From positions 1 to 25,508 of the IMG/VR virus record IMGVR_UViG_3300035698_002006: a stretch of DNA of 25,508 nucleotides. One strand, 5' to 3'. Both the position numbers and the translations under genes were made by a program. The DNA comes from a virus. The notes under the pieces were generated by a model. That model saw nothing but the letters and a program-made list of their open reading frames with translations. It searched no databases and was not told where the DNA came from. The first letter of the stretch is position 1; every line of letters starts with the position of its first letter. Shown here one piece after another: positions 456 to 23,654 of the stretch.

Positions 456-806
456 ATGATTTTGTCCAACGAAGCGCGAGCGCTGCGCAAGCGACAACAG
501 ACTGAGAGGCTGGCCGCTAAGGCTGCGGCAGCCGAAACCGGAGACTTCTCCGCATACTCAGAATTCTATGCAGGGCAGGGCCTACAGAGGGCCAAGGCCG
601 AGCAAAACGAAAAGGTCACGGTAGCTCGCCGAGCGGTACGCCGAGCTAAAGACGCTCTGGATATGGCTCGCGTTTCGGGCGAAGACATCGCCGTCATAGC
701 CGCAGCACACTCGGCATCCATCCTGACCCTCAACGCAACGGTCAAGCAAACGGCCGCGCTGTTCAACACACGTTCAGGCTTCGATATTGCAGGAGGTGAC
801 GCTTGA
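456..806 (+). CDS. Hypothetical helical protein
   Basis: This 116-residue protein starts at an ATG preceded by AGGAG about 7 bases upstream. It is rich in Ala, Arg, Lys and Glu. Residues 5-30 and 45-75 look strongly helical, with alternating charge (for example RALRKRQQTERLAAKAAAA), and could form a coiled coil. There is no signal peptide or membrane segment. Its stop codon overlaps the TTG start of the next gene by 4 nt, so the two are translationally coupled. It opens a run of co-directional virion genes behind a promoter-like motif. No family was recognised; a small virion-associated or scaffold-like role is possible but not shown. Confidence 0.75.
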   Translation: MILSNEARALRKRQQTERLAAKAAAAETGDFSAYSEFYAGQGLQRAKAEQNEKVTVARRAVRRAKDALDMARVSGEDIAVIAAAHSASILTLNATVKQTAALFNTRSGFDIAGGDA

Positions 807-1255
807 GTAACCTAACCAACCAGACCGAGGATGATCTGCTTGATCTGCTTTTCACGAACGTAGACGCTCCAAACTGGGGTGATGCGGCAGGCCTTCAGAA
901 CTCAGCCACGGCAGGCAGCCTGTATATTGGTTGTCACGTCTCAGATGCGCTCAGCGACACGAGCACGGCACAGAACGCCAGCGAGTGCGCCTATACCGGA
1001 TACGGTCGTCAGGCGGTTGTACGTTCGACCGCAGGCTGGACGGTTGCGTCTGGTGTTGCCGACAATGACAACCTGATCCAATTCGGCGAGGCTTCCGGTG
1101 GAACACCAGAGACGATCACTGACGTCGGCATCGGTTACGAGTCAGGAGACCCCGGCTATCTCCATATCTGGGGCCAAGTGTCTTCCGATCTGGTTGTGAA
1201 CGTCGGTGTTAATCCTCAGTACGCGGCCGGTGCTCTGGATATCTCTCTGAACTAA
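803..1255 (+). CDS. Small phage virion protein, beta-rich
   Basis: The 150-residue product starts at TTG in a TTGA overlap with the upstream stop. A strong ribosome-binding site, AGGAGGTGA, lies just upstream and decides this start. The N-terminus (MSNLTNQTEDDLLDLLFTN) followed by SLYIGCHVSD, AYTGYGRQAV and a Gly/Val-rich beta half recalls a widespread phage family in which the segment reads roughly SLHTADPG...AYTGYAR. That family lies among fibre and decoration genes and is often annotated as hypothetical or as a tail-fibre-associated protein. There are two cysteines (near residues 44 and 62). It is probably a minor virion component. The family resemblance is recalled, not searched. Confidence 0.7.
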   Translation: MSNLTNQTEDDLLDLLFTNVDAPNWGDAAGLQNSATAGSLYIGCHVSDALSDTSTAQNASECAYTGYGRQAVVRSTAGWTVASGVADNDNLIQFGEASGGTPETITDVGIGYESGDPGYLHIWGQVSSDLVVNVGVNPQYAAGALDISLN

Positions 1256-1722: not shown

Positions 1723-2136
1723 GTGAGTTCCACGAAACTACGTCGTGAACTACTGGACGATCCACTTGGCCGTGGCTATTCGGCAATGACGGACGCCGAG
1801 GTTCTGACCGATCTTACTGACGAGACACTCCGAGACCTCCCCGACCTTCAGGTAGCTAAAGGCTCCGAACTTTACGAGGTTATCGTCCGTAGCGAGTACC
1901 TCGCATTGACGGACACCCAGCGAGACGAGCTAAATCTGATTCTGGGTTTGGGCGACGAGGTTTTAGTCATAGACACGTCAAAAGCACGCGCCGCGATGCT
2001 GACCATGTTTGACGTCAATTCTGCCACGCGCCCAGCACTGAGCGCCTTTGTTGATAACCGAACCACGTCCCGCGCAATAGAGCTGGCTCTTGGTAGCGTG
2101 AGTGAGTCTGATATTGCCGCAGCTCGGTTGCCGTAG
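1723..2136 (+). CDS. Conserved phage protein with DPLGRGYS N-terminal motif
   Basis: The start is GTG, two bases after the upstream stop; the product has 137 residues. The N-terminus RRELLDDPLGRGYSAMTDAE and the C-terminal pattern of a serine/arginine helix ending in DIAAAR match a recurrent phage family. Its members read roughly L...DPLGRGYAGM...LN and end in SRA.ELG...V...AR, and they occur beside fibre and virion genes. The middle has a helix-turn pattern (YLALTDTQRDELNLILGLG). The function of the family is not known to me. The gene ends in TAG, 9 bp before the next ATG. Confidence 0.7.
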   Translation: MSSTKLRRELLDDPLGRGYSAMTDAEVLTDLTDETLRDLPDLQVAKGSELYEVIVRSEYLALTDTQRDELNLILGLGDEVLVIDTSKARAAMLTMFDVNSATRPALSAFVDNRTTSRAIELALGSVSESDIAAARLP

Positions 2137-2145
2137 GATGCAGTC

Positions 2146-2664
2146 ATGACATCACAAGTATTCCAGATAGGCGCCACTGATATATCGTGGCTAGCGACTG
2201 GCGGGAGCGCGGCCTTGACTTGCACGTCACTCGCTGCCGGTGCGGGTAGACAGGGCGCTCAGTACGACTTTGGTATCATCACGGATGCTCGCGAATTCCT
2301 GTTCGACTGGCATTTCTACATGCAGTTTGCGACCACCCCGGTAGTTGACGAAATCGTTGACATCTATTGGAAGGGCTTTGCCGCGCAAAACTCAAGTCGC
2401 GGCATGAACGATGATGGCACATCGGACGCGGCGGTATCGAGCGAGGACAAGCTGAAAAACCTCAAATTTTTGGGTTCGTTGATTGTTGACGAGGCCAGCG
2501 CTACCCCAGAATTCGCAGCATTCAACCGAGGCGATCCGATCTGGATTCCTCACCGATACGGTATGCCCGTTATTTGGAATAGAACGGCGGACGCGTTTAG
2601 CTCTACTGCCGCTGAACATGGGTTCGTTCTGACGCCGATCACGCCTCAAGCTCAAGCGACTTAA
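2146..2664 (+). CDS. Conserved phage virion-associated protein
   Basis: The 172-residue protein starts with MTSQVFQIGATDISW. It carries the block DWHFYMQFATTP...DIYWKG, then a charged loop with KLKNLKFLGSLIVDEA and a late RYGMPVIWNRTAD. I recall this arrangement from small virion-associated proteins of marine and freshwater phages that lie next to large fibre genes. Tryptophan and aromatic residues alternate with Ser/Thr in a beta-sandwich-like pattern. No catalytic motif is visible. A decoration or fibre-accessory role is inferred from its place just before the 1608-residue fibre gene. Confidence 0.7.
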   Translation: MTSQVFQIGATDISWLATGGSAALTCTSLAAGAGRQGAQYDFGIITDAREFLFDWHFYMQFATTPVVDEIVDIYWKGFAAQNSSRGMNDDGTSDAAVSSEDKLKNLKFLGSLIVDEASATPEFAAFNRGDPIWIPHRYGMPVIWNRTADAFSSTAAEHGFVLTPITPQAQAT

Positions 2665-2679
2665 TCGGGAGGCTGTACG

Positions 2680-2730
2680 GTGATGGCAGTACCTTGTTCA
2701 TCGCCGAATAAAGACCCCTCCAATGGCTGA
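2680..2730 (+). CDS. 16-codon leader ORF overlapping the fibre gene start
   Basis: A clear ribosome-binding site, GGGAGG at 2667-2672, is spaced 7 bases from a GTG that is immediately followed by ATG. The frame encodes about 15-16 residues (ATG form: MAVPCSSPNKDPSNG) and stops at TGA 2728-2730, 5 bases past the start of the fibre gene's ATG (2723). The fibre ATG itself has no Shine-Dalgarno sequence. The simplest reading is a leader peptide that couples or tunes translation of the large gene. It could be chance, since the ORF is very short. Confidence 0.4.
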   Translation: MMAVPCSSPNKDPSNG

Positions 2731-5700
2731 TAAACTCAAATACAGCGGCTCGTCAATCGCCAACAAACTTGGCGGCTTGACGACCTCGTGGGCCGACCAA
2801 ATAGGTTACTTCCCGACGTCCGTTGACACAGGGTTCGGCACCTATAACAACACGACCGGATTGTGGACAGCCCCGGCTGATACGTCAGGATTCGATGCGG
2901 TAATATTCGAGTGGTCAGTGGAGTACGAGGACGGCAGCAATGGGCGTGTAAATCCCTCGTCCAGAATCGTTCAGAAATCAGGCACAGCGACACTGTTCCG
3001 CACTTGTATAGTTGACGGTTATTCGCGTGACACGTCAGAAGATCGGTCGTTCAATCATGGCACTGCGATCGGCGTTGGGGTCAGCAATAGCTCAACCTTC
3101 CAATTACAGGCGACGCGTTCCACTGACGGCGCAGATGCTTCTGATGGGATAGTTGTATCGTCACTCACTGTATTCCCTATCAAATATGGCGCTATCGGAA
3201 TCTACGAAAGCACTAGCGCAGCCATATATTCCTCTCGTCCAAACTCGCAGGTAACTGGGTGGGCAACACTGTACGAATCTGACACGGCCCAGATTCAGCG
3301 TAACGGTGACGGCATTGACCTAAAGGGTGACAACAAGCGCTACCAGCACATCATGAACTACAGCCGTAGCGGGGGAGGTAGCGGCGATCGCACAGAAAGA
3401 CTGATGAAGCCGTATGCGGATGGTGTGCCTCAGTGTGTCGGGTACACGTATATTCGGAACGCCGCGAACAGCGCTAATAACTCTTGCTTGACGCGGGACA
3501 TAATCGAAACTGCGACGGCGACGATCGACCTTGATATGCGCGTCGGCATAGGCCCCACGCCAGCCGACAACGTGGGCGGCTCTCAGGTAGCAGGGGCGGA
3601 TCCCGCGACCGCGATCAGCACGATAATAGTTATTGAACACCTTGACCAGACGGGCATCGTCCGATCAAAAGACACGACGGCCGATCAAGCTCTGGACGTC
3701 ACCGGGCCGGTTGATTTGAATGTCGCCAGAGTTGGTGCTCAGGACATAATTGACGTTGACTCGTTTACGCGAATAAGCAATACGGCATTCGACAGTCAGG
3801 CCATTATGGACGTTTGGGCCGGGGCTAATATATGGGCGCCTCGCGCGACCGTTGCAAGCACGACGAGGAACACAACCCGCGCTCATATTGTGGTCGAATC
3901 AGTAGAGGACGCCTCCACATTTGACGGTGGTTACAGCCGAGGTAATCAGGCTTTAACGGACACTTATGACGTAGCCTACAATCCAAGCGGGTTGGTTTCC
4001 CTTGGGGCGGGCGACGAGATAGGCGCATCTGTACAGCGGATTACCGGGACAGAATCCGGCAATCCAATCACCAAGACCGGAGGTGATGACGAGGGTGTGA
4101 CCTTCTGGGCTATTGATCTTGAATCAATGTTTGCCTCCGCGGCGCCTTCCGATATAGCGGCAAGCGCTGCGATCGCGCTAGACGCTACGGCCGACCTTGA
4201 TGGCGCTGGCGAGCTTTCAAGCTCGTTGCCTTTGGCTCTCGATGTAACCGCTGACCTAGATGGCGCAGGCGAGCTGTCAGGTGCCTTGGGGTTGAGTCTT
4301 GACGTGACCGCCGACGTGGACGCGGTCTCCAATAACGACCTGACCGCCTCGGCACCAATTGCGCTTGACGTCGCGGCCGATCTGGATGGCTCAGGAGAGC
4401 TTGCGGGCGCCTTAGATTTAAGTCTACTGTCAACAGCCAACCTTGACGCGGCTGGTGAATTGTCGGCCGCCCTTGATGCCGACCTATCCGTAACGGCTGG
4501 TATCCAGAACACACCGGCGCCAGCTCCGAATGTGGGCGGCGTTTACCCACTCAAGCGTCCTTGGACAACTCAGCCGCCGAGCTACACTGAACTCAGCGAT
4601 CATTCTCGCTTGGGCGCTCATTGCGTCTGGGCACTTGTTCCGGGTTGGGGGAGCTTCAGTTCCGTCAGTAATATTGCACATGGTGGGGCTCATAGTGTTG
4701 GACAGAGGATGCTGTTTGACGCGGACACATTTGACAATTCTCAGCTATACAAAAGAAGCGGAGAGTATGGTCCCGGAGTTGGGAATTGTCGGGTGTTCAG
4801 TTCACAGACCACCTCGGGCACACGGCCAGTAAGACTACTCAGAACGACAAATGACTTGGGTATTAAGTTTCCTGACCGTAAAAACCTCTCAATAGTAGGA
4901 ATATTCAAACCAGTAATTGACGGCAGGCCAGCGGGTCAAGGCGATCCGCGCATATTCTCAATAGACGAAGGCACGTCGGAAGCCGATCACGACCTTATGA
5001 TTGGCATTGCTGATTTTGGAAACGCTGCACGGACAAGAATTAGAGTTGGTGGAGGCACCAGAACGGTATTATCCACAGCCGTTATACGTGACGACGAAGT
5101 TCAGATGATTGCTGGTGTTGTTTCGGCTGTTGCCGGAGTTGCTACAAAAATAGACTGTATGCACTTAGCGCAAGACGGTGAATACAATAGATCGAGTTTC
5201 CCAAATACGCAGCTTGGGGATCATACTTACGATCCACGAAAAATCACGGATATGGCAATCGGCGCTACCGCTGATTCAGGCACTAACGATAATTCTTTTC
5301 GCGGTGATATTATTGCCGTGTACGCATTTGACTTCGCGTTCACAGAACAGGATATGCGCGATCTTTTCGCGAATCCTTGGCAAGTGTTTGCGCCGCGAAC
5401 GCTGTGGCTGCCGAGTGCGATAGCTGGAGCAGCAAGCGCTGATGTTGCCGCCTCGCTCGGCCTTGCGCTCAGCGTCGCGGCCGACTTCGAGGCGGCCGGC
5501 ACGCTCAGTGCGTCGCAGGTCGTAGCGCTATCGGTTGCCGCTGACTTGGCGGCGGCTGGATCGATTGATGCCGCTGCCGCTATGGTGCTCACAGTTGCCG
5601 CCGATCTAAGCGCCTCAGGTTCTTTGGACGCGGCTAACGTGCTCGCGCTTTCAGTTCTGGCCGACGTGGACGCAACGGCAACGCTTGACGCCTCAGTTCT

Positions 5701-7549
5701 GGCCCAGCTAACAGCCTCCGCTGACGTAGATGCTACCGGGGCACTGAGCGCATCTATGCTGGCTCAGTTGACGGCTTCGGCCGTGCTCTCGTCACCGGCA
5801 GGGTTGGAGACCGCGCTTCTGGCCCAGCTTACGACGGCCGCTGATATTGACGGCACTGGTTCTCTGGCTGCCGCGCTTCTGGCTGAGCTTACGGTAGCAG
5901 CAAGCATGACTAGCGAGGCATCACTAGCCGCCTCAGTAAGCGGCAACCTCACCGCCACGGCCGACATTGATGCGGTTGGGTCTCTGACCGCTTCGGCGCT
6001 GGCGCAGTTTGTTGCCGCCGCTGACATAATCGGGCCGGGGTCACTGATTGCCTCGGCGCTTGCGGAGTTCACCGCGACAGCCGATATAGAGGGGCCCGGA
6101 CTCCTTCGCGCTTCAGCGCTTGCGCAGTTTATAGTCACGGCGGACATAAACGGTTCGAGTTTTCTGGTTGCATCTGCCCTACTCCAATTAACGGCATCGG
6201 CCGATCTTCGGGCGACGGGGGAGCTTCGGGCCTCAGCGCTCGCCCAGACAATAACCACAGCCGACCTGAGCGCTCTGGGTACCCTCGAAGCTGTAACGCT
6301 CGCTCAACTTGTAGCCACAGCCGACATTAGCGGACTCGCAGGGCTGGATGCCGCGCTGGTCGCTCAGTTTGTAGCCACGGCCGACCTTGATGCCATTGGC
6401 TCGCTTGACGTGGCGTTACTCGCGCAGCTTGTGACGACAGCCGACCTCAGCGCGATTAGTTCCATTGACGCTTCGCTTCTGGCTGAGTTCGTCGTCTTGG
6501 CCAACGCCGGGACGTCGGCGTCGCTCGTGGCTGTCACGCTGCTTGAGTTGATAGCATCGGCCGACCTGTCAGGCGTAGGGACTCTGGGAGCGTCGCCGGT
6601 AGCGCAGTTATCGGTCGCTGCGGCGCTTGACTCGATCGGAGAGCTGTCTTCGTCGCTCGATGGCGTACTGAGTTTACTTGGAGGTATAAACGCGTCAGGC
6701 AGCGTTTCAGCCAGTGCTGCGCTGTCTTTGCTCGTCACGTCTCAGTTAAGTAGCGCAGTATCTATAAATGCTGGACTGGTTGCCGCCCTTACGGTCTCAC
6801 CGGACATTGACGCGATTGGATCGCTAGCCTCGGCGCCAGAGGTTTTGTTCACGGTGCTGGCTGACCTAGTGGCCGTGGGCGGTCTCGACGCCGCTTTGGC
6901 GGTCTCGTTATCGGTCGCGGCTGACATCAATAACGTATTCAATAACGACCTGAGCGCAACGGCGGCAATCATACTGAGCGTCGCGGCCGACATTGACGCG
7001 ATCGCTAACATGAGGGCGACTCCGAACCTCGCGCTAACTACGGCGGCGGGCCTTTCGGCGGTTGGCGCTATGGGCGCCTCGCTTGAGGCGTTGTTTACGG
7101 TGACGGCGAACGCAACCGGCGCGGGTGAGTTGGACGCTGGTGTGGTTTTGTCGGCCGATTTAGTCGCCGAGCTGTCCGCCCAGATTCGCAACTCCATTGA
7201 GGCCACGCTTCCAATATCGCTGATTGTCGCGGCCTCAGTCTCGGCCACAGGGTCATTAGCCGCCTCAGCGTCCTTGACATTTGGGCTGTCTGCTATACTT
7301 TCCGACAGCTCAGGCAGACGATTGCCGAACTCGGTCCAGTCTTTCTTTACTTCGCTATTCAACAGCCTTCAAGAATTCTCAGAGAGCCAGAACAACAGCG
7401 AGCAGACGCTAGCCGGTGAGTCAGGGAACAAAGAGCAGAGCTTGACCGGAGGTTTATGTAACAGCGAACAAGACCTAACCGGCGAGACATGCAACAGCGA
7501 GCAGACGCTCGTGAGTGGTAATAATTCAGAGGGAATAATAAATGGCTGA
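2723..7549 (+). CDS. Giant repeat-containing tail fibre/appendage protein with LamG-like domain
   Basis: The 1608-residue protein is modular. Residues about 30-155 look like a C1q/jelly-roll beta domain (GTYNNTTGLWTAPAD). Two more beta-sandwich-like regions follow, at about 170-310 and 345-468. A short array of 20-residue repeats spans about 479-594 and a LamG/concanavalin-like domain about 606-893, ending in the typical NPWQVFAPR. A long array of about 31 such repeats covers 906-1529. The last 50 residues are 11-residue NSEQ-type repeats. LamG domains commonly bind carbohydrate, and the arrays probably form an extended stalk. No signal peptide is present. The ATG has no own ribosome-binding site and is probably coupled to a leader ORF. 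A receptor-binding or head-decorating fibre is inferred; the position before the connector genes leaves open where it sits on the particle. Confidence 0.8.
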   Translation: MADKLKYSGSSIANKLGGLTTSWADQIGYFPTSVDTGFGTYNNTTGLWTAPADTSGFDAVIFEWSVEYEDGSNGRVNPSSRIVQKSGTATLFRTCIVDGYSRDTSEDRSFNHGTAIGVGVSNSSTFQLQATRSTDGADASDGIVVSSLTVFPIKYGAIGIYESTSAAIYSSRPNSQVTGWATLYESDTAQIQRNGDGIDLKGDNKRYQHIMNYSRSGGGSGDRTERLMKPYADGVPQCVGYTYIRNAANSANNSCLTRDIIETATATIDLDMRVGIGPTPADNVGGSQVAGADPATAISTIIVIEHLDQTGIVRSKDTTADQALDVTGPVDLNVARVGAQDIIDVDSFTRISNTAFDSQAIMDVWAGANIWAPRATVASTTRNTTRAHIVVESVEDASTFDGGYSRGNQALTDTYDVAYNPSGLVSLGAGDEIGASVQRITGTESGNPITKTGGDDEGVTFWAIDLESMFASAAPSDIAASAAIALDATADLDGAGELSSSLPLALDVTADLDGAGELSGALGLSLDVTADVDAVSNNDLTASAPIALDVAADLDGSGELAGALDLSLLSTANLDAAGELSAALDADLSVTAGIQNTPAPAPNVGGVYPLKRPWTTQPPSYTELSDHSRLGAHCVWALVPGWGSFSSVSNIAHGGAHSVGQRMLFDADTFDNSQLYKRSGEYGPGVGNCRVFSSQTTSGTRPVRLLRTTNDLGIKFPDRKNLSIVGIFKPVIDGRPAGQGDPRIFSIDEGTSEADHDLMIGIADFGNAARTRIRVGGGTRTVLSTAVIRDDEVQMIAGVVSAVAGVATKIDCMHLAQDGEYNRSSFPNTQLGDHTYDPRKITDMAIGATADSGTNDNSFRGDIIAVYAFDFAFTEQDMRDLFANPWQVFAPRTLWLPSAIAGAASADVAASLGLALSVAADFEAAGTLSASQVVALSVAADLAAAGSIDAAAAMVLTVAADLSASGSLDAANVLALSVLADVDATATLDASVLAQLTASADVDATGALSASMLAQLTASAVLSSPAGLETALLAQLTTAADIDGTGSLAAALLAELTVAASMTSEASLAASVSGNLTATADIDAVGSLTASALAQFVAAADIIGPGSLIASALAEFTATADIEGPGLLRASALAQFIVTADINGSSFLVASALLQLTASADLRATGELRASALAQTITTADLSALGTLEAVTLAQLVATADISGLAGLDAALVAQFVATADLDAIGSLDVALLAQLVTTADLSAISSIDASLLAEFVVLANAGTSASLVAVTLLELIASADLSGVGTLGASPVAQLSVAAALDSIGELSSSLDGVLSLLGGINASGSVSASAALSLLVTSQLSSAVSINAGLVAALTVSPDIDAIGSLASAPEVLFTVLADLVAVGGLDAALAVSLSVAADINNVFNNDLSATAAIILSVAADIDAIANMRATPNLALTTAAGLSAVGAMGASLEALFTVTANATGAGELDAGVVLSADLVAELSAQIRNSIEATLPISLIVAASVSATGSLAASASLTFGLSAILSDSSGRRLPNSVQSFFTSLFNSLQEFSESQNNSEQTLAGESGNKEQSLTGGLCNSEQDLTGETCNSEQTLVSGNNSEGIING
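4157..4505 (+). repeat. Short array of 20-residue (60-bp) coding repeats, about 6 units
   Basis: Within the fibre gene, units of the form (A/S)-ALxLALDVTADLDGAGEL recur about six times at residues 479-594. One unit is 22 residues long because it carries NNDL in place of DL. Unit length is well conserved, while the DNA of the units has diverged, so the array is old and kept by selection at the protein level. Confidence 0.85.
5438..7309 (+). repeat. Long array of 20-residue (60-bp) coding repeats, about 31 units
   Basis: Residues 906-1529 of the fibre protein are about 31 tandem units of pattern x-ASxLAQLTxxADLxAxGSL. Nearly all are exactly 20 residues; two are 22. Hydrophobic residues recur at fixed positions (roughly 5, 8, 10, 14 and 20), with Ala-Asp near 12-13 and Gly near 18. 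This suggests a beta-strand per unit and a repetitive rod or solenoid. The array follows the LamG domain directly and has the same consensus as the short array before it. Confidence 0.9.
7394..7540 (+). repeat. 33-bp tandem repeat coding 11-residue NSEQ units
   Basis: Units start at 7394, 7427, 7460 and 7493 with an exact 33-bp period and a degenerate fifth unit. They encode NSEQTLAGESG, NKEQSLTGGLC, NSEQDLTGETC and NSEQTLVSG, then NSEG. Two units end in cysteine. This repeat is unrelated to the 20-residue array and forms the extreme C-terminus of the fibre protein. Confidence 0.85.
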
Positions 7550-7916
7550 GGAAATTGTAGGCGACATCATTTGCCGAAAGCGCGGAGACACTGCGCCCGA
7601 CAAGATCACCATACTTGACCCGGAATCAGCAACGACGCCACTCGCGCCGCTTGACATTACGGGGTTCTCTTTTGTCATGACGATCAACACCGAGAAAGAC
7701 CCAGAGGCGGGAGTCGGGACCGAGCTTGCTCAGATTAACGGCGTGATAATTGACGCGCCTGCTGGCATCGTTGAGTTTCGGCCGACCGTGGGTGACGCGG
7801 ATCAAATTGCCGACGTATTCTGGTACGACATCGAGCAGATTGACGCGGCAGCGTTCATCAAGACGATAGCCAAAAACAAGTACATATTCTTTCAGGACAT
7901 CGGGAAGACAAACTAA
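7542..7916 (+). CDS. BppU-like N-terminal domain protein (baseplate/virion)
   Basis: The 124-residue protein overlaps the end of the fibre gene by 8 nt. It has the order seen in BppU N-terminal (DUF2479-like) domains: a start with KRGDT, a strand DITGFSFVMTI, a loop with charged residues, a hydrophobic strand GIVEFRPTVGDADQI, then FWYDIEQID and KYIFFQDIG. In lactococcal phages this immunoglobulin-like domain anchors receptor-binding proteins to the baseplate. Related small proteins occur in many siphophages near fibre genes. Being translationally coupled to the fibre gene, it may anchor that protein to the particle. The domain call is fairly good; the partner is inferred. Confidence 0.65.
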   Translation: MAEEIVGDIICRKRGDTAPDKITILDPESATTPLAPLDITGFSFVMTINTEKDPEAGVGTELAQINGVIIDAPAGIVEFRPTVGDADQIADVFWYDIEQIDAAAFIKTIAKNKYIFFQDIGKTN

Positions 7917-8464
7917 TGGCTTCAGTATTCACGGTTGAAACCGGCACCGGAATAGCGACCGCGAACAGCTATGTCACCGTGGCCGAGGCGACTCAGTACC
8001 TTGAGAACAGTGGCCGCAAGGATGGCACTTGGGGCAACGCAAGCAGCAAGGAAAAGGAGGCGGCGCTCGTCACCGCGTTCTATTACATGCTGGCCCGATG
8101 GAACGGCAAATGGAGGGGCTACCCAGCCAACGAGGATCAGGCGGGTGACTGGCCACAGCGCGACCAGCTCAAAAAGTCTGGGCACGCTTACAATGACAGC
8201 GAGATTGCTGTCGCTGTGAAGAACTCTCAGATTGAGTACGCGCTAATCGAGGCGGGCAGTGCGGGAGCGTTATTCCCAAACCCGGAATATGACGACACAA
8301 ACCGGGCCGTGACCGGCAAGACTGACGTAGTAGGGCCGATCACTGAGACGAGGCAGTTTAGCGACCGATCGCAGCCGTCTACGTGGCGCAAGTTCCCGTT
8401 AGCCGATAACCTCCTGAATCACCTTGTTCATAGTGGCTCGGTGAAGTCACTTTCGAGAATGTAA
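7916..8464 (+). CDS. DnaT-like head-tail adaptor (connector) protein
   Basis: The 182-residue product begins VETGTGIATANSYVTVAEATQYL, then WGNASSKEKEAALVTAFYYM, a WNGKWRG block and DWPQRD. This is the pattern of the phage family annotated as DnaT-like ssDNA-binding protein, which lies at the head-tail connector position and is related to gp6-type adaptors that sit below the portal. The C-terminal strand TETRQFSDRSQ fits the family. It overlaps the upstream gene by one base (TAATG) and the next gene likewise. The database name reflects a distant similarity; a connector role is far more likely from context. Confidence 0.8.
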   Translation: MASVFTVETGTGIATANSYVTVAEATQYLENSGRKDGTWGNASSKEKEAALVTAFYYMLARWNGKWRGYPANEDQAGDWPQRDQLKKSGHAYNDSEIAVAVKNSQIEYALIEAGSAGALFPNPEYDDTNRAVTGKTDVVGPITETRQFSDRSQPSTWRKFPLADNLLNHLVHSGSVKSLSRM

Positions 8465-14598: not shown

Positions 14599-15939
14599 AT
14601 GCCATTTGTCAATGAGCTTTTAGTTGCAGACGGGGCAACCTCGCTCGGTCATATTGTCCTCTCGAAAGCGGTGCTGGATATCATCACAAACGACGCGCTA
14701 TTGACGGTCGCGGTTAATAGCGGCGGGACAGGTTACGTCGTAGATGAAGAATTCGACATAGACGGCGGCACGATAATAGGGGCCTTCAATGCGCGCGGCG
14801 TCGTGACGGCTGTATCGCTGGGCGTCGTGACTGGCGTTAAACTCGTCTCAGCAGGCGCCTACAGCACGCTCCCCGGCGTAACGGGCGCAACGACCAGTAA
14901 CGCCAGCGCGGGAGGTGATGACGCGCTCACGGTTGATCTGACGACGCAGACGGCTCGATGGACGGAAGACGAAAGTGACTACACGGATGACCTGACAGAA
15001 TTCGAGTGGATTTGCACGTCGGTCAAGTCGTCAAACCCAGCGACCATAGGCGTCAAGACGGGCGAGTCAGGAGGCAATGGCTCTCTCCGGTTGTTGGTTG
15101 CTTCTGGCTATGACAGCGGCTCGGTGTTCGACGCCCAGCCAGACGCCTCAGCGGAGGCCGTTTGCCATATAAGCGTGTCCGGTAGTAACCCTCAGGTTTT
15201 GCTCTCCACAACTGAGCGTCGGGTCAATGTGATGTCGCGCGACGGCAGCAACGTGCAAGTGGGAGGTATGGGCTTGTTCATACCGATAACCAACTCGGAT
15301 GCAAACTATCCGTTCCCGGCCATCGTTCACGCGCAAAAGCGCATCATTGCCGCAATGTCGGGGACCTACCAAGCCGCCTCCGGTGGTAACGCCGTGAATG
15401 CAAGTGTGGTCAATCCCGGTGAATACAACGCGTCACTGCCGCCACCATATTACTATCGCGACAACCTCTCAGCTCAGTGGCTTACGATCGCCACAATCTC
15501 AGCGACGGGCGGCGCTAATTCGATGATCTGGCCGAATGAGCAAAGTGACAACTCCTACAACTTCACGCACGCGCCAGAGGTAAGCGGGAAAGGGACCAAC
15601 CCGCTCGCGGACAACCAGCCAGCCGGTGTTTTCTCTGATGATGGGAGCGGTAGCGGTGAGGGTTGGTTTAACGACGACGGCACCGTGCTCGGCTATCAGG
15701 GCGTCTCACCATTTGGTACCGGCAGTCAAATGTCATTCGTTGTCGCCGCGCACATAATTAGAAGCCAGACCGGGGAGGTTTCGGTTATAGGATATATTGA
15801 TGGCTTCGCCGCCGTGCATGGCGTAGGCCTGACCGCTTTCGAGGAAATAGAGAGCTTCGGCAGCGCTCAGCGCTACATCGTCTTCCCAGACGCCAACGGG
15901 TCGGAGCTGGAAAACTGGGTTGCAATGGAGATTCTTTGA
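14599..15939 (+). CDS. Tail-region virion protein of unknown role, beta-rich
   Basis: The 446-residue protein starts 3 bp after the tape measure stop. Residues about 33-95 contain the pattern SGGTGYVVDEEFDIDGGTI...VTAVSLG...VKLVSAGAYSTLPG. It resembles small beta domains (GsGY...GG...G.VT.V.....GGYT..P) that recur in phage virion proteins. The remainder is Gly/Ser/Asn-rich with beta strands and a PPPYYYRDN segment. It lacks catalytic signatures. It lies between the tape measure and the distal tail genes, so it is probably a tail-tip or tail-surface component, but I cannot name the family with certainty. Confidence 0.7.
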   Translation: MPFVNELLVADGATSLGHIVLSKAVLDIITNDALLTVAVNSGGTGYVVDEEFDIDGGTIIGAFNARGVVTAVSLGVVTGVKLVSAGAYSTLPGVTGATTSNASAGGDDALTVDLTTQTARWTEDESDYTDDLTEFEWICTSVKSSNPATIGVKTGESGGNGSLRLLVASGYDSGSVFDAQPDASAEAVCHISVSGSNPQVLLSTTERRVNVMSRDGSNVQVGGMGLFIPITNSDANYPFPAIVHAQKRIIAAMSGTYQAASGGNAVNASVVNPGEYNASLPPPYYYRDNLSAQWLTIATISATGGANSMIWPNEQSDNSYNFTHAPEVSGKGTNPLADNQPAGVFSDDGSGSGEGWFNDDGTVLGYQGVSPFGTGSQMSFVVAAHIIRSQTGEVSVIGYIDGFAAVHGVGLTAFEEIESFGSAQRYIVFPDANGSELENWVAMEIL

Positions 15940-17120
15940 TGCCTCACGAATTTGTAGTTGGAGTGTTTGAGCCGGGTGACGATGACCTCGGTGACTTTAT
16001 GTTGGATATCTGGCTGCCATTCGCGCGGGATGATTGTAACTGGGTGGATAACCGAGCGCCCTCAGTTGGCACGCGCCCTGATATCGAAGTATGGACGCAC
16101 AGAGGTAGCGCCATCACTCCTGAGCCTCCTTACTTTTTCGCGCGCACCGAAGACCGGCACATGATGATATTTACCGGTGACGATGTAGACACTGGCGAGG
16201 AGATTTATGACCAGCCGGGGAACCCGGCAAACCAACCCGTGAACGCGGGGTTCGATATCCCGGCTTCAGGCTTTGTGACCTCAGCCATGAAGTGTTGTTT
16301 TCTCAATTCGCTCGTGGGTCCGTATGAAGGTTATTGGCTTTTCTGTGACACGTCCGGGTCTTATATTCACTGCGTTGTCAAGGTCAATTCGCGACAATAC
16401 CGTCACTTCCATGTTGGCCTGCTTCAACAGGTAGACGGCGGCCCGGATTTAGACGCTGATTCGTTTTACATCACGGGGCATACGTGGGCGAGCCTAGACC
16501 CTGAAGCGCTATACCCGCCTACCGGTGTTGTTCTCGCCGATCAGGAGCATGACCTCTTTCACGAGGGGCACCGCATCCCGTTTAGGAACGCATCCTACCA
16601 AGCTCCATCGGTATCTTTGACGTTCGCCCAGATCAATACGTTCCCCTCCGCTTGGTACTACATGCCAAACCTGAGCACGCACAGTTATGACTGGTATCAG
16701 GCAGGCCCTAACGCCGCTTTGACGGGGGCAGGGGGCAACGCCGTCAAGAATGTTGGCACTGTCAACACGAGCGTAGAGATAGGTCAAGCTCAGACGAACT
16801 ATTATGATAACGGGCTAGGTACCATTCTGTTTGCTTGCGACCCTACGTTCACCTCAAACAGCAACACACTTATTCCGATCTACGTGGGGGTGAACTTCAG
16901 CTTTGCGAGTGAGGCGCGGCTCGGCGTGGTGGCGCAAGTCCCAGACATATTCCGTGTGAACATGCGCGACTATGATGCGGAGGAAACGATCACAGTGGGC
17001 GGCGTTGACTACAAGGTGTTTCCCGTCATCAACAAAGACTCCGCGAACACTGTTGACGGTGACGGCTACAGCGGTTGGGAGGGCCTCGCTTATCGCGTTG
17101 AAACCGGGGCCGTTGTCTAA
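15939..17120 (+). CDS. Conserved phage tail-region protein of unknown function
   Basis: The ATG at 15939 overlaps the upstream TGA (TGATG) and has GGAG eight bases before it, so it is preferred over a TTG three bases earlier. The 393-residue protein has the pattern YEGYWLFCDTSGSYIHCVVKV...YRHFHVGLLQQV. In this pattern a cysteine/histidine-rich strand pair precedes a HF..G.L motif, as I recall from a family of virion proteins found in many phages. A later part has tryptophan- and tyrosine-rich loops (WYYMP, YDWYQ). The family function is unknown to me. A tail-tip or fibre-connector role is inferred from its position. Confidence 0.7.
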   Translation: MPHEFVVGVFEPGDDDLGDFMLDIWLPFARDDCNWVDNRAPSVGTRPDIEVWTHRGSAITPEPPYFFARTEDRHMMIFTGDDVDTGEEIYDQPGNPANQPVNAGFDIPASGFVTSAMKCCFLNSLVGPYEGYWLFCDTSGSYIHCVVKVNSRQYRHFHVGLLQQVDGGPDLDADSFYITGHTWASLDPEALYPPTGVVLADQEHDLFHEGHRIPFRNASYQAPSVSLTFAQINTFPSAWYYMPNLSTHSYDWYQAGPNAALTGAGGNAVKNVGTVNTSVEIGQAQTNYYDNGLGTILFACDPTFTSNSNTLIPIYVGVNFSFASEARLGVVAQVPDIFRVNMRDYDAEETITVGGVDYKVFPVINKDSANTVDGDGYSGWEGLAYRVETGAVV

Positions 17121-18809: not shown

Positions 18810-19716
18810 TACCTACGAAGAAGGCGACGGCAGTCCCGTTGAAATAATCACGTTTCAGAGTGGCGGGACCACCTACCCGATCGCTAACACCGTGTTCCCG
18901 TACACGCTTGGGTCAGTGGTGTTTCAGCCGCTCGCTTATACGTTGTCACCGTTCTCCCAAAGTAAGGACAGTGACGACAACAACCGAACCATGAGAGTGT
19001 CCAACAGCTTCGCGGTCGTTGGTTTGTACACTGGGCCGCTGAAAAGCAGCCTCGTCACTTGCACGGTAGAGCGTGTCCACGTAGACGACGGCGCGCAGCA
19101 ACGCCAAATTCTATGGAAGGGCCGCATTGTAGCGGTAAACCATGTGAATGGTGAGGTTGAAATACTGCTTCAGCCCGCTACGTCAGGAAAGGAATCAACA
19201 CCACCTGACACATTTAGCGGGCTTTGTAATTCGTTCCTTTTCGATTCTCCGGGTTGCAGCCTCACGCGGGACGACTGGCGCTTCGTTGGCACCGTGACGT
19301 CAATCAGTGTGGACGGTATTGATATAGAGGTTTCAGGTCTCCGTGTACAGGCCGAGGCGCTAGACACGGCCCAAGGTGGCGCCACAGGCCCACTGACGTC
19401 CGGTGAGTTGGACGTTTACTTCAAAGGCGGCTATATCGTCGCCGGGGATGGTGAAGTACGAGACATCATTGAAGGCGACGTCGGTGGCGATCCAGATACC
19501 GTGAGGATAAGTATGCCGTTGCGTGACGTGGCCGTATCAGACGCGATCGCGGTGTATGCTGGCTGCGACTTATTGAGAGCGACCTGTCACAAGAAGTTTG
19601 ACAACGTGCTGAACTTTCAGGGCTTCCCGGATATACCTGAAATTGATCCAGCCAATACTGAGCTACCTCCGGGGTCGCGGGGCAGTCCATCGCCGTTCGC
19701 AGGAGTTCAAATATAA
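18799..19716 (+). CDS. Tail hub protein, DUF2163/BR0599-like, possible Fe-S protein
   Basis: The 305-residue protein has the hub pattern: an N-terminal beta domain; LQPATSGKE...FSGLCNSFLFDSPGCSL; and near the end AVYAGCDLLRATCHKKFDNVLNFQGFPDIPEIDP, the signature end of the DUF2163/phage_BR0599 family. Four cysteines (143, 153, 256 and 263) are placed as in homologues, where they can bind an iron-sulfur cluster; lambda gpL and the gene transfer agent hub are known examples. It forms the ring between the distal tail and the tip protein. GAGG precedes the ATG. The start overlaps the upstream gene, and the stop overlaps the next start (TAATG). Confidence 0.85.
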   Translation: MAFDTYEEGDGSPVEIITFQSGGTTYPIANTVFPYTLGSVVFQPLAYTLSPFSQSKDSDDNNRTMRVSNSFAVVGLYTGPLKSSLVTCTVERVHVDDGAQQRQILWKGRIVAVNHVNGEVEILLQPATSGKESTPPDTFSGLCNSFLFDSPGCSLTRDDWRFVGTVTSISVDGIDIEVSGLRVQAEALDTAQGGATGPLTSGELDVYFKGGYIVAGDGEVRDIIEGDVGGDPDTVRISMPLRDVAVSDAIAVYAGCDLLRATCHKKFDNVLNFQGFPDIPEIDPANTELPPGSRGSPSPFAGVQI

Positions 19717-22700
19717 TGTGGTGGCGTTTTGTTTGGTGGATCGTCTCGTTCGCAATTAGTGATTACTTCCGCGATCGGCTCCCGGCTCAGACGGCCAGCG
19801 GCATCGGTGACTTTAACGTGCCGACCGCAACAGAGGGCCGCATAGTTCCGATCATCACGGGTGGGACGCCTCGCATACGGTCTCCGAACTGTATCTGGTA
19901 CGGCGACTTCAGGGCGACCGAGCGCACCGTCACCACGGGGATAATCTTTCAAGATACCAAGGTTGTTGGATACGTGTATGAGTTGGCCCTTGCCTACGCG
20001 TTATTCAAAGGAGAGTGCGCAGGTATCACACGCGTCTGGATTGGTGACGACAAGGTTTTCGATCACGTTGACGACGCGGCTGGCGTTCCTCAGTCCGTCA
20101 TAGACATAGACCGGGACGACTTGTTTGGCGGGGTAGATCAGGGCGGCGGTTTTGTCGGCCGCATTCGGTTGCATAACGGCTCAGAAACGCAGGCCGTGAA
20201 CGCCTACTTGCAGGGCCATGTTCCGTTGACGCCAGCCTATCGCGGGACAAGCTATGTTGTAATCACTGACCCGACCGAGACCAAGGGCGCGAACATCGGA
20301 GAACAGAACAACCTCCGTTACTTCACCTTCGAGGTTCAGGCGTTCGACACCGTAGCCAATGGAGGCCTTGGCGACGTGCTCGGCCTTGGCAATGACCATC
20401 ACTTTATTGGGCAAGACGCAAACCCGGTTTCAGTTGCCTACGACCTTTACGTGAATACGCGATGGGGAAGAAAGTACGGAACGAGTGAAGTTGACCTTAC
20501 CAACTTCAGGGCGGCGGCTGAAGTGCTCTGGACGGAAGGCCTCGGATACACGCAGTTGATTGACGAGAGCACCGCCACCGAGAGCATTCAGGACACGATC
20601 GAGCAGCACATTGATGGCTACATCGGTCCCAACGCATTGACCGGCAAGGTTCAGGTAAACCTCGCACGTCAGGACTACACGCTTTCGGCCGAGTTTCAAG
20701 CGGACGCTAGCAACATAGAGAGCGTCCCAAAATGGAACAAAGGCGACTGGTCGCAAACATACAACCGGGTCCGCATTCGCTACACCGACCGGGGCAAGGA
20801 CTGGAACGAAACGCACGCCGTTGAGCTGGCTTCTGGTAACCGTATAATTCAGGGCAGAACGGTGACAAAAGAGGCCCGCTACCAAGGCTGCCACACCGCC
20901 TCCGTTGCCTCAAAGCTGGCCGCGCGCGAGCGTCGCAATCTGGCCAGACCGGCAAAGAGCGGAACCATTGAGGTGAACCGCACGGCGTGGCAGTTGCGTC
21001 CGGGGATGGTGTTCAGCTTCACGAGTGACGAAGTATTCGAGACAGACCTCGCGGTCAGAATAACCAAAGTTTCAGTAGGCAACACTCAGCAGAACACGAT
21101 GGTATTTGAGGTAGTTGAGGACGTATTTGACAATGACCCGGCCACCGCAGCCGCGCCTCCGGTGACGGATTTCGTGCCACCTGTTCAGGCGGTGGTTCCG
21201 TTCCTCGCGGCCGATCAGGCGGCGGCGACCGTGCCTTATGGTTTGATGGCCTACAACCAGACACCAAACCTCGTTCCGCGGATAGTTACTTTCGCGCGAG
21301 CCGCGAGCGACAACTCTCCGACGTTCTATGAAATACAGCGCCGCGTCAGGACGGCCTTCGGGACGGGCGGTTATGGGTCATACTCAACAAGCGGCCTAGT
21401 GACGGGCGGTTTTGCTACCGTAGGCGAGCTGAGAGCCGCCGCGCCGCAATGGGAAGCGAACAACGGCACGTTGACTATGCAGGTTGATCCGATCGGCTCA
21501 GAGTCTCTTGACGGCCTCATAGGCGGTTACTCTCCTACGCCAACGAACGCAGCAGGCATCGCCGTGATTAGCCCCGGACTGGCTGACGAGGAATGGATTG
21601 CATTCACGGGAGTTGTCGACGACGGTGCCGGGGTCCAGTTGACTGGCGTTTACCGATCGTTCTTTGACTCCCCGGCCGTCGTTCACGCGCTCGGCGCTCG
21701 CGTCTGGTTTGTCTGGCTTGGAGGAATGGGCATGACGGACGGAGGGGATCTGTTTTCGGCCGGTAACGGGGTCGAGGTCAAACTGCTTCCCAGCTCTCCG
21801 ACGGATACTGTTCTCGAAGGTGCCGCCACAGCAATCGCTGAAATTGATGTGCTGGACACCATCAGGAGTACTCGGCCGCTCCTGCCGCGATCGCTGGAAT
21901 GCAATGATGTAGAGTTTCCGACCGGCAACGTGAGCGCCGACTTCGAGGCGGCTACCGGGCCGTCCGTTTTTGGTGTTCGCTTCAACCCGTTCCCGCGCTA
22001 TTGGAAAACACCTGACGCGATAAAACAGGTGCAAGGATTCAACGCGGCTGGCGTTGCAATAACGGACGCCGACTGGTTGGTTGAAGGCGCTCAGATTGAG
22101 TACTGGCTTTTCGACTTGGGCGCCACGCCGTCACCAGTCCGCGGAGTAGACGAGCTAGTCACAGGGACGCTTGTCTGGGACGAGGTTACGGACCTGTTCA
22201 TAATAACGCGCGCCGACATACTGGCGTCAGGTGTGACGGACAGCATCGTAGCGGCTCGCATTGAGATAGAGATTGAGCACAGTCCAGCTAGTGAGGCGGC
22301 AAACCAGATCAGTCGGGTTCCAATGATTTTTGATTTCACTCTGGTTGGCGACTTCGCTACCTCGCCGCCCTTCAGTGAGTGGGCGTTCGCGTCACACTTC
22401 GATGGGACTGACGCAGCCACAACGGCCGTTGACAACTCACCGCAGGCCGGTACGATCACGTTCAACAACAACGCTCAAATTGACACTGCGCAAAGTGTGT
22501 TCGGAGGCGCCTCTTTGCTGTTTGATGGCACAAACGATTACGTTCAGATACCGGATCACGCGATCCTCAATCTGGCCGCTCAAGATTTTACGATGGAGTG
22601 CCGGGTAAGGTTCGCAACCACACCGGCATCAGCGCAGGGCTTCCTGACTATGTGGAACGACGTTTCTGGTCAGAACACGTTCGTCTTCAGATACGTTAGC

Positions 22701-23654
22701 GGGACACTGAGTTTTGGATACTCACCGGGAGCCAGCGGTTTTGTCGGTTTTGGCGTGACGTGGGCGCCCGTCGCTGACGTGTGGTACGCGGTCGCGGTGT
22801 GCAGGATAGGCGCGGACTTGCTGTTTTTCGTTGATGGCTTGCAGGTAGGCACAGCTCAGAACATAGGGGCGGCGACCATATACAACGGCACGGGGCCGTT
22901 ACGGCTGGGAGGCTGGTTCAGTGGCGGCACACTGATAAGCGATCTTGACGGCTGGATTGACGAGGTTCGCGTTATTGTTGGGACGGGCCTGTACACCGAT
23001 GACTACACGCTTGCGGCCGCACCGTTCACCTTTTACGCGGTCACGCTTCTGGCTGACTTTAGCGGGGGCACCGGGGCGACGGCATTCACTACGCGCGACC
23101 AGTACGCGCACGTCCTTACATTCACTGGAAACGCCCAGCTTGACGACGTTGACTCAAAGTACGGTTACGCCTCGTTGCTTCTTGATGGCGTCGGCGGCTA
23201 CGTTAGCGCACCGAGTCACGCGGGCTTTGACTTCGGCACGGGTGATTTCACTGTTGAGGGTTGGATTCGGCCGGATGATATGACCATCGGCAACATACTG
23301 TCATGGTCAAGTGGAGCTGTTCAGGGAGCGCTGTATCTCGATGGGGTCGGGAGTAACCTGCACTTTCAGACGGCGGGCGTCGAGCGGATCACGGGAGGAT
23401 CACTCGTGACTGATACGTGGTATCACGTCGCGATCGTCAGAGACGCAGGAACCCATGAAATATTCTTGGATGGCGTAAGCCTCGGCACCGACGCGACGGC
23501 GATCACCTACGTTCAGGCGGCGTTCGAGATCGGAAGACGTAACGGCGCGTCCAACGTGTTCGCGGGTAGCCTTGAAGACGTGCGGGTCACAAAGGGCATC
23601 GCGCTGTACACCGGGACATTCACGCCGCCGACCGAGGCGTTCCCCAGAGTTTAG
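19716..23654 (+). CDS. Tail tip protein (J/megatron-like) with two C-terminal LamG domains
   Basis: The 1312-residue protein begins with an aromatic hydrophobic segment (MWWRFVWWIVSFAISDYF), common in tip proteins. Residues about 235-325 carry the Phage-tail_3-type pattern YDLYVNTRWGRKYG...EVLWTEGLGYTQLIDE...GYIGPNALTGKVQVNLARQDY. Immunoglobulin/fibronectin-like parts lie about 480-880. Two tandem LamG domains occupy about 890-1105 and 1110-1312, with SLLFDGTNDYVQIPDH / DFTMECRVRF and SLLLDGVGGYVSAPSH / DFTVEGWIRP as matching strands. The tip protein penetrates the cell surface and recognises the receptor; LamG domains are typical carbohydrate or protein binders. No NlpC/P60 peptidase gene lies between this and the hub. 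It ends in TAG, sharing bases with a minus-strand stop. Confidence 0.88.
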   Translation: MWWRFVWWIVSFAISDYFRDRLPAQTASGIGDFNVPTATEGRIVPIITGGTPRIRSPNCIWYGDFRATERTVTTGIIFQDTKVVGYVYELALAYALFKGECAGITRVWIGDDKVFDHVDDAAGVPQSVIDIDRDDLFGGVDQGGGFVGRIRLHNGSETQAVNAYLQGHVPLTPAYRGTSYVVITDPTETKGANIGEQNNLRYFTFEVQAFDTVANGGLGDVLGLGNDHHFIGQDANPVSVAYDLYVNTRWGRKYGTSEVDLTNFRAAAEVLWTEGLGYTQLIDESTATESIQDTIEQHIDGYIGPNALTGKVQVNLARQDYTLSAEFQADASNIESVPKWNKGDWSQTYNRVRIRYTDRGKDWNETHAVELASGNRIIQGRTVTKEARYQGCHTASVASKLAARERRNLARPAKSGTIEVNRTAWQLRPGMVFSFTSDEVFETDLAVRITKVSVGNTQQNTMVFEVVEDVFDNDPATAAAPPVTDFVPPVQAVVPFLAADQAAATVPYGLMAYNQTPNLVPRIVTFARAASDNSPTFYEIQRRVRTAFGTGGYGSYSTSGLVTGGFATVGELRAAAPQWEANNGTLTMQVDPIGSESLDGLIGGYSPTPTNAAGIAVISPGLADEEWIAFTGVVDDGAGVQLTGVYRSFFDSPAVVHALGARVWFVWLGGMGMTDGGDLFSAGNGVEVKLLPSSPTDTVLEGAATAIAEIDVLDTIRSTRPLLPRSLECNDVEFPTGNVSADFEAATGPSVFGVRFNPFPRYWKTPDAIKQVQGFNAAGVAITDADWLVEGAQIEYWLFDLGATPSPVRGVDELVTGTLVWDEVTDLFIITRADILASGVTDSIVAARIEIEIEHSPASEAANQISRVPMIFDFTLVGDFATSPPFSEWAFASHFDGTDAATTAVDNSPQAGTITFNNNAQIDTAQSVFGGASLLFDGTNDYVQIPDHAILNLAAQDFTMECRVRFATTPASAQGFLTMWNDVSGQNTFVFRYVSGTLSFGYSPGASGFVGFGVTWAPVADVWYAVAVCRIGADLLFFVDGLQVGTAQNIGAATIYNGTGPLRLGGWFSGGTLISDLDGWIDEVRVIVGTGLYTDDYTLAAAPFTFYAVTLLADFSGGTGATAFTTRDQYAHVLTFTGNAQLDDVDSKYGYASLLLDGVGGYVSAPSHAGFDFGTGDFTVEGWIRPDDMTIGNILSWSSGAVQGALYLDGVGSNLHFQTAGVERITGGSLVTDTWYHVAIVRDAGTHEIFLDGVSLGTDATAITYVQAAFEIGRRNGASNVFAGSLEDVRVTKGIALYTGTFTPPTEAFPRV

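Follow-up and report, generated by a model that had tools for sequence, protein, structure and literature searches.

The question raised by this locus is what kind of protein is encoded by one long gene in which two arrays of a 20-residue repeat are separated by a LamG-like domain, where such a protein would be placed on the virion, and how its layout could have arisen. The gene lies in a 25.5-kb IMG/VR virus contig (IMGVR_UViG_3300035698_002006), and the whole stretch of 25,508 nucleotides is referred to here as the window. Relatives of the protein or of its parts are designated by L numbers.

The gene and its two repeat arrays

The following features were located in the gene.

2723..7549, plus strand: candidate fibre gene, 1608 aa, an uninterrupted single ORF, intact in the virus record
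2723..4144, plus strand: N-terminal domain, aa 1-474, a putative exchangeable module (65% identical in L001, 46% in L003)
4145..4516, plus strand: array 1, 5-6 twenty-residue coils, aa 475-598 (unit profile; AF2 beta-solenoid)
4331..4342, plus strand: NNDL turn insertion of array 1, aa 537-540, in a 22-residue unit, aa 521-542
4538..5410, plus strand: predicted LamG/ConA-like domain, aa 606-896 (38% identical N-terminal domain in L099; PF13385 in relatives; fold matches)
5441..7294, plus strand: array 2, about 30 twenty-residue coils, aa 907-1524 (unit profile; AF2 of the first 6-7 coils)
6941..6952, plus strand: NNDL turn insertion of array 2, aa 1407-1410, in a 22-residue unit, aa 1391-1412
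7295..7546, plus strand: C-terminal cap with 11-residue NSEQxL repeats, aa 1525-1608 (39-45% identical caps in L064, L099, L054, and L118)

Repeat units in the 1608-aa protein were located with an iterated unit profile, which detected five full units (aa 481-582) and a partial sixth in array 1, and 29 units (aa 911-1514), a terminal half-unit, and one degenerate unit (at about aa 1473-1494) in array 2; shuffled versions of the protein gave a mean of 0.7 matches and a maximum of 4. These counts, 5-6 before and about 30 after the central domain, agree with the original prediction of about 6 and about 31 units, which had been made from the letters of the window, and the near-constant unit length that it claimed was also found: 29 of the 32 within-array spacings were 20 residues, two were 22, and the remaining one, which spans the degenerate unit, was 42. 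The units are very regular and rich in Ala and Leu. They have diverged in DNA, mostly at third codon positions (identities of 0.48, 0.58, and 0.31 at codon positions 1, 2, and 3), with the amino-acid pattern kept, and therefore the claim that the arrays are under selection is supported at the level of the protein. Exact DNA matches between array 1 and array 2 reach at most 16 bases, which speaks against a misassembly driven by the repeats.

The NNDL insertion shared by one unit of each array had been taken to suggest block duplication. The two insertions do occupy the same turn. However, the neighbours of the two NNDL units resemble each other no more (identity 0.42-0.52) than array-1/array-2 pairs do overall (mean 0.43), and block duplication was rejected. 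Since extensions of 2-3 residues at this turn recur in L003, L099, L118, L054, and other relatives, the NNDL insertions look like a tolerated turn variant.

Gene neighbourhood and probable place on the virion

Three neighbouring genes bear on the place of the protein.

803..1255, plus strand: Gp80-like gene (PF23140 "Podophage GP4 fiber I protein gp80"; phrog_240 "head protein")
7542..7916, plus strand: next gene, phrog_1084 by PHROGs match, syntenic in relatives
7916..8464, plus strand: head-tail adaptor Ad1 (phrog_477, E 1e-35)

The order observed downstream is phrog_1084, Ad1, head closure Hc1, Neck1, tail terminator, a tail-tube-like gene, a tape-measure-like ORF (named from its place and its alignment to relatives), and a tail protein. 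An array gene followed by a phrog_1084 homologue and Ad1 was also found in L064, L078, L099, L054, L118, and L004, and in 13 of the 93 array loci among the matches listed, a Gp80-like gene precedes the array on the same strand, at a distance of 0.3-4.7 kb. A gene placed between head genes and the head-tail adaptor does not favour the reading as a tail fibre, and from this position we infer a location that favours the head or neck over the tail. The contents of the slot before Ad1 differ among isolates that have related tail genes, with spanin, holin, and endolysin genes in phage M6, an endopeptidase gene in MMDA13, and little in RDJL3 and ctIqW946; thus the position is suggestive only and does not prove a head protein. 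It is possible, as the lesser of the two readings, that the gene in this head-tail junction slot encodes a neck or collar whisker or a tail side fibre instead of a capsid fibre, as it directly precedes the head-tail adaptor, closure, and neck genes in an order that is kept in L064, L099, L054, and L118. In contrast, L003 shares the N-terminal domain and the array type, and its incomplete 33.7-kb contig has portal and coat genes, but neither a tail tube nor a tape measure was recognised in the ORFs examined.

Elsewhere in the window, two adjacent genes (14599-15939 and 15936-17120) both match phrog_687 and probably encode paralogous structural proteins, and a partial gene at 1-372 resembles a 2OG-Fe(II) oxygenase, as judged from reading the sequence.

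Fold of the arrays

The arrays were modelled with AF2 as a single chain covering aa 475-1030, from a shallow alignment of nine sequences. Both arrays were predicted to form a regular beta-solenoid with three strands per 20-residue unit, with pLDDT of 81-92 across the greater part of array 2 and of about 57-78 across array 1, so that the proposed check by structure prediction of the units as a monomer gave an ordered solenoid. The E-values from plain Foldseek with this model were weak. In VIA alignments the top structure was HxuA (Z 13.9, rmsd 2.2 over 137 residues), HMW1 gave a Z of 11.9 with an rmsd of 1.9 over 135 residues, and the left-handed LpxA/LpxD helices superposed only at an rmsd of about 11.5, which argues that the array model is right-handed. 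Middling Z values can come from a shared repeat arrangement, and therefore agreement with Pfam matters. PF05594 (Fil_haemagg) was matched by 15 of 22 related array segments (best 9.6e-9) and by none of 10 shuffled controls; the full array of L084 matched it with 33.9 bits (E 5e-8), above the curated cut-off, and the array segment of the window scored below that cut-off (15.4 vs 21.5 bits). Searches of PDB sequences returned nothing useful, whether the query was the protein, the profile of the array, or that of the LamG domain. Taken together, the model, its alignments, and the Pfam matches of relatives point to the FHA/TpsA type of right-handed three-sheet beta-helix, with one 20-residue unit per turn. 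The original prediction of a long beta rod carrying a domain in its middle thus holds for the regular rod of constant geometry and for the LamG-like domain between the arrays, but not for the lack of a characterised fold, since the repeat resembles an already solved family (HxuA and HMW1, with PF05594 in relatives). The rise of a beta-helix is 0.48 nm per coil, which gives estimated rod lengths of about 3 nm for array 1 and about 14.5 nm for array 2.

Most phage fibres with solved shafts are trimers, and a trimer test had been proposed along with the monomer test. A homotrimeric shaft, such as a triple beta-spiral or triple beta-helix, would be in keeping with this, but we consider it unlikely, because a single chain was confidently predicted as a closed solenoid, the array model matches single-chain TpsA helices at an rmsd of about 2, and units of relatives match PF05594. 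A protein secreted by, or exposed on the surface of, a lysogen (a moron adhesin) rather than a part of the virion appears more improbable still. Secreted bacterial adhesins are the best-known carriers of FHA-like shafts (PMC5422565), and the slot before Ad1 can carry non-structural genes; however, the full protein has no TPS domain or other Pfam family and no visible signal peptide at its N-terminus (MADKLKYSGS...), and its gene lies on the same strand inside a run of structural genes whose synteny is conserved.

The central domain

The Pfam search of the central domain returned 0 families, so that the LamG label of the original prediction lacks a direct match, and what upholds it are relatives with PF13385 and the predicted fold. 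Among these relatives, L245 matches PF13385 through an adjoining tandem domain and L247 does so just under the cut-off. The AF2 model, built from seven sequences, is of medium confidence (mostly pLDDT 50-82 at aa 720-870); Foldseek matched it to LamG and CBM40 at a prob of 0.95-0.99, and VIA gave Z values of 10-10.8 with rmsd of 3.1-4.8, predicting a ConA-like jelly-roll. The model also resembles sialidase lectin domains. An hhalign comparison of the central domain with the LamG_3 domains of the window itself (22395-23648) gave no match, probably because of shallow depth, and therefore the LamG link rests on the relatives and the fold, through which a LamG/ConA-like assignment is supported.

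The LamG_3 domains of the window are a tandem pair of true LamG_3 domains at the C-terminal end of a tail protein (phrog_1101, 19716-23654), and this pair is a second lectin-like module in the same phage.

Exchange of terminal domains and origin of the two-array layout

The AF2 confidence for the N-terminal domain (aa 1-474) was low, and a genome scan with this domain found no bacterial relative. At the other end of the protein, the 11-residue repeat of the cap (NSEQxLxGExx) is located at 7397-7546 of the window and is present in a shorter form in L064, L099, and L118.

The N-terminal and central domains were found in other combinations in relatives. The N-terminal domain is followed in L001 by a 22-residue repeat of another type, and in L003 by five 20-residue units, after which the protein stops; ten further units are encoded there by a separate downstream gene. 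The central domain is itself N-terminal in L099 and L244, in a 716-aa protein that continues directly into about 16 detected units and then the same cap, and it is also N-terminal in L246, where it is followed by 22-residue repeats similar to the array of L001. That array, to which the N-terminal domain is joined at 7430-8052 of L001, has a consensus like VNVLASTDDLTLSEFSATIAND.

The clearest cases of exchange came from pairs of loci. The DNA of L099 and L118 is 85% identical over a stretch that begins with the array, takes in the cap, and runs on into the downstream genes, whereas the N-terminal domains of these two are unrelated. In L118 and L054, the N-terminal domains are 97% identical but the arrays 69%. 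By these alignments, N-terminal domains were shown to swap cleanly onto conserved arrays and C-terminal caps. A variable N-terminus combined with a conserved C-terminus beside conserved genes suggests that the C-terminus is virion-proximal, and we infer that the cap is likely to be this end.

Since the LamG-like domain starts the proteins of L099, L244, and L246, and the upstream part ends after five units in L003, its middle position in the window protein is best read as the result of a fusion between one protein of the L003 kind and one of the L099 kind. The presence of the two halves as separate proteins in L003 and L099 would also fit an assembly chimera of two array genes, the least probable of the alternatives considered, because 16 bases of exact identity between the arrays are few to mislead an assembly, the reading frame is unbroken, and the sequence on either side follows the expected order.

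Distribution of the repeat

A degenerate DNA pattern for two adjacent units was scanned over viral contigs and matched at least 119 stretches, and at least 93 viral loci had arrays in an open frame. Among the matches listed, a unit spacing of 20 was by far the commonest (646), followed by 18 (92). The same pattern found few regular arrays in genomes. No array was detected in seven stretches of named phages and one podovirus-like half-contig, so the unit profile is not simply promiscuous. In tblastn searches of phage isolates with the whole protein, the N-terminal domain, the central domain, the L001 and L003 proteins, L109, and the central domain of L099, no match was obtained. The low-complexity filter of BLAST is likely to have masked the arrays; a tail-tube control query matched 518 records. 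A PHROGs search of the fibre protein gave only an uninformative long-profile match (phrog_27049), and a search of BFVD gave no coherent match.

In L109, a minor tail protein (phrog_754, 4242-7697) has a glycine-rich N-terminal domain and about 29 units of the same repeat type, and thus the shaft also occurs outside the head-side locus. In L001, two GIY-YIG-type homing endonuclease-like genes (1920-3393), recognised from reading the sequence, interrupt the capsid gene region.

A probable modular fibre

We consider it reasonably probable that the gene encodes a modular virion fibre, composed of an FHA-type single-chain shaft, exchangeable binding modules, and a C-terminal virion-proximal cap, and derived from the fusion of two proteins. 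The shaft would be a right-handed, three-sheeted FHA-type beta-helix formed by a single chain, as computed. The LamG/ConA-like and N-terminal domains could serve as exchangeable, outward-facing binding modules, whose putative ligands would probably be host glycans or other polymers on the host surface. The conserved cap, with the conserved neighbour genes, would mark the end that is attached to the virion, probably at the head or neck. The two-array layout may have resulted from the joining of a protein with the N-terminal domain and a short array to a protein with the LamG-like domain, a long array, and the cap.

More tentatively, the protein might represent a widespread unnamed family of capsid or neck fibres, with a single-chain FHA-type shaft, a C-terminal cap as the anchor, and exchangeable lectin-like domains at N-terminal or internal positions, which could supply the unidentified thin head fibre proteins in many uncultured phages. 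The present analysis connects a repeat present in at least 93 viral contigs with a shaft fold already known, makes domain swapping visible at the array boundary, and offers a specific sequence signature by which fibres of this kind could be sought in uncultured phages. Confirmation in virions would mean that phages use shafts of the bacterial-adhesin type as host-contact fibres near the head.

Comparison with known systems

Earlier work had already described FHA-like phage proteins (PMC3909814, PMC7247149), and the candidate fibre gene has a predicted shaft of known type in an unusual setting. A hemagglutinin-repeat protein, gp211, is part of the structural proteome of phage phAPEC6 (PMC7247149), and FHA-like genes are among the putative host-recognition genes in metaviromic islands of marine phages (PMC3909814). 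The window protein is likened to these by description, as phage proteins annotated with this repeat type, and differs in its LamG domain, caps, and swaps, which do not appear in the available portions of their descriptions.

With the capsid fibres of phage 7-7-1 and of phiCbK-type phages, the predicted fibre would share a possible role in host contact, exerted through long thin fibres close to the head. The capsid fibre proteins of phage 7-7-1 are still unknown (PMC12796354), and neither its whole genome nor the examined stretch of CcrSC contained arrays of this kind by the unit profile.

The central domain is similar to the LamG/ConA-like domains of phage structural proteins (PF13385) in its predicted jelly-roll and in having relatives that match PF13385. 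Unlike members of that family, it has no Pfam match itself and forms a divergent subfamily with an RPWTTQPP motif at the start and an NPWQVFAPR motif at the end.

The closest likeness of the arrays is to TpsA proteins (FHA, HMW1, HxuA; PF05594), which form right-handed helices of three parallel sheets; that of HxuA measures 120 A in length (PMC5422565). The window protein also has imperfect tandem repeats of about 19-20 residues, and its arrays are predicted to have three short parallel strands per coil and a right-handed course. Unlike TpsA proteins, it has no TPS secretion domain (no Pfam family), signal peptide, or visible partner transporter, and it is encoded in a phage structural locus, with very regular Ala/Leu-rich units and with a LamG-like domain placed between its arrays.
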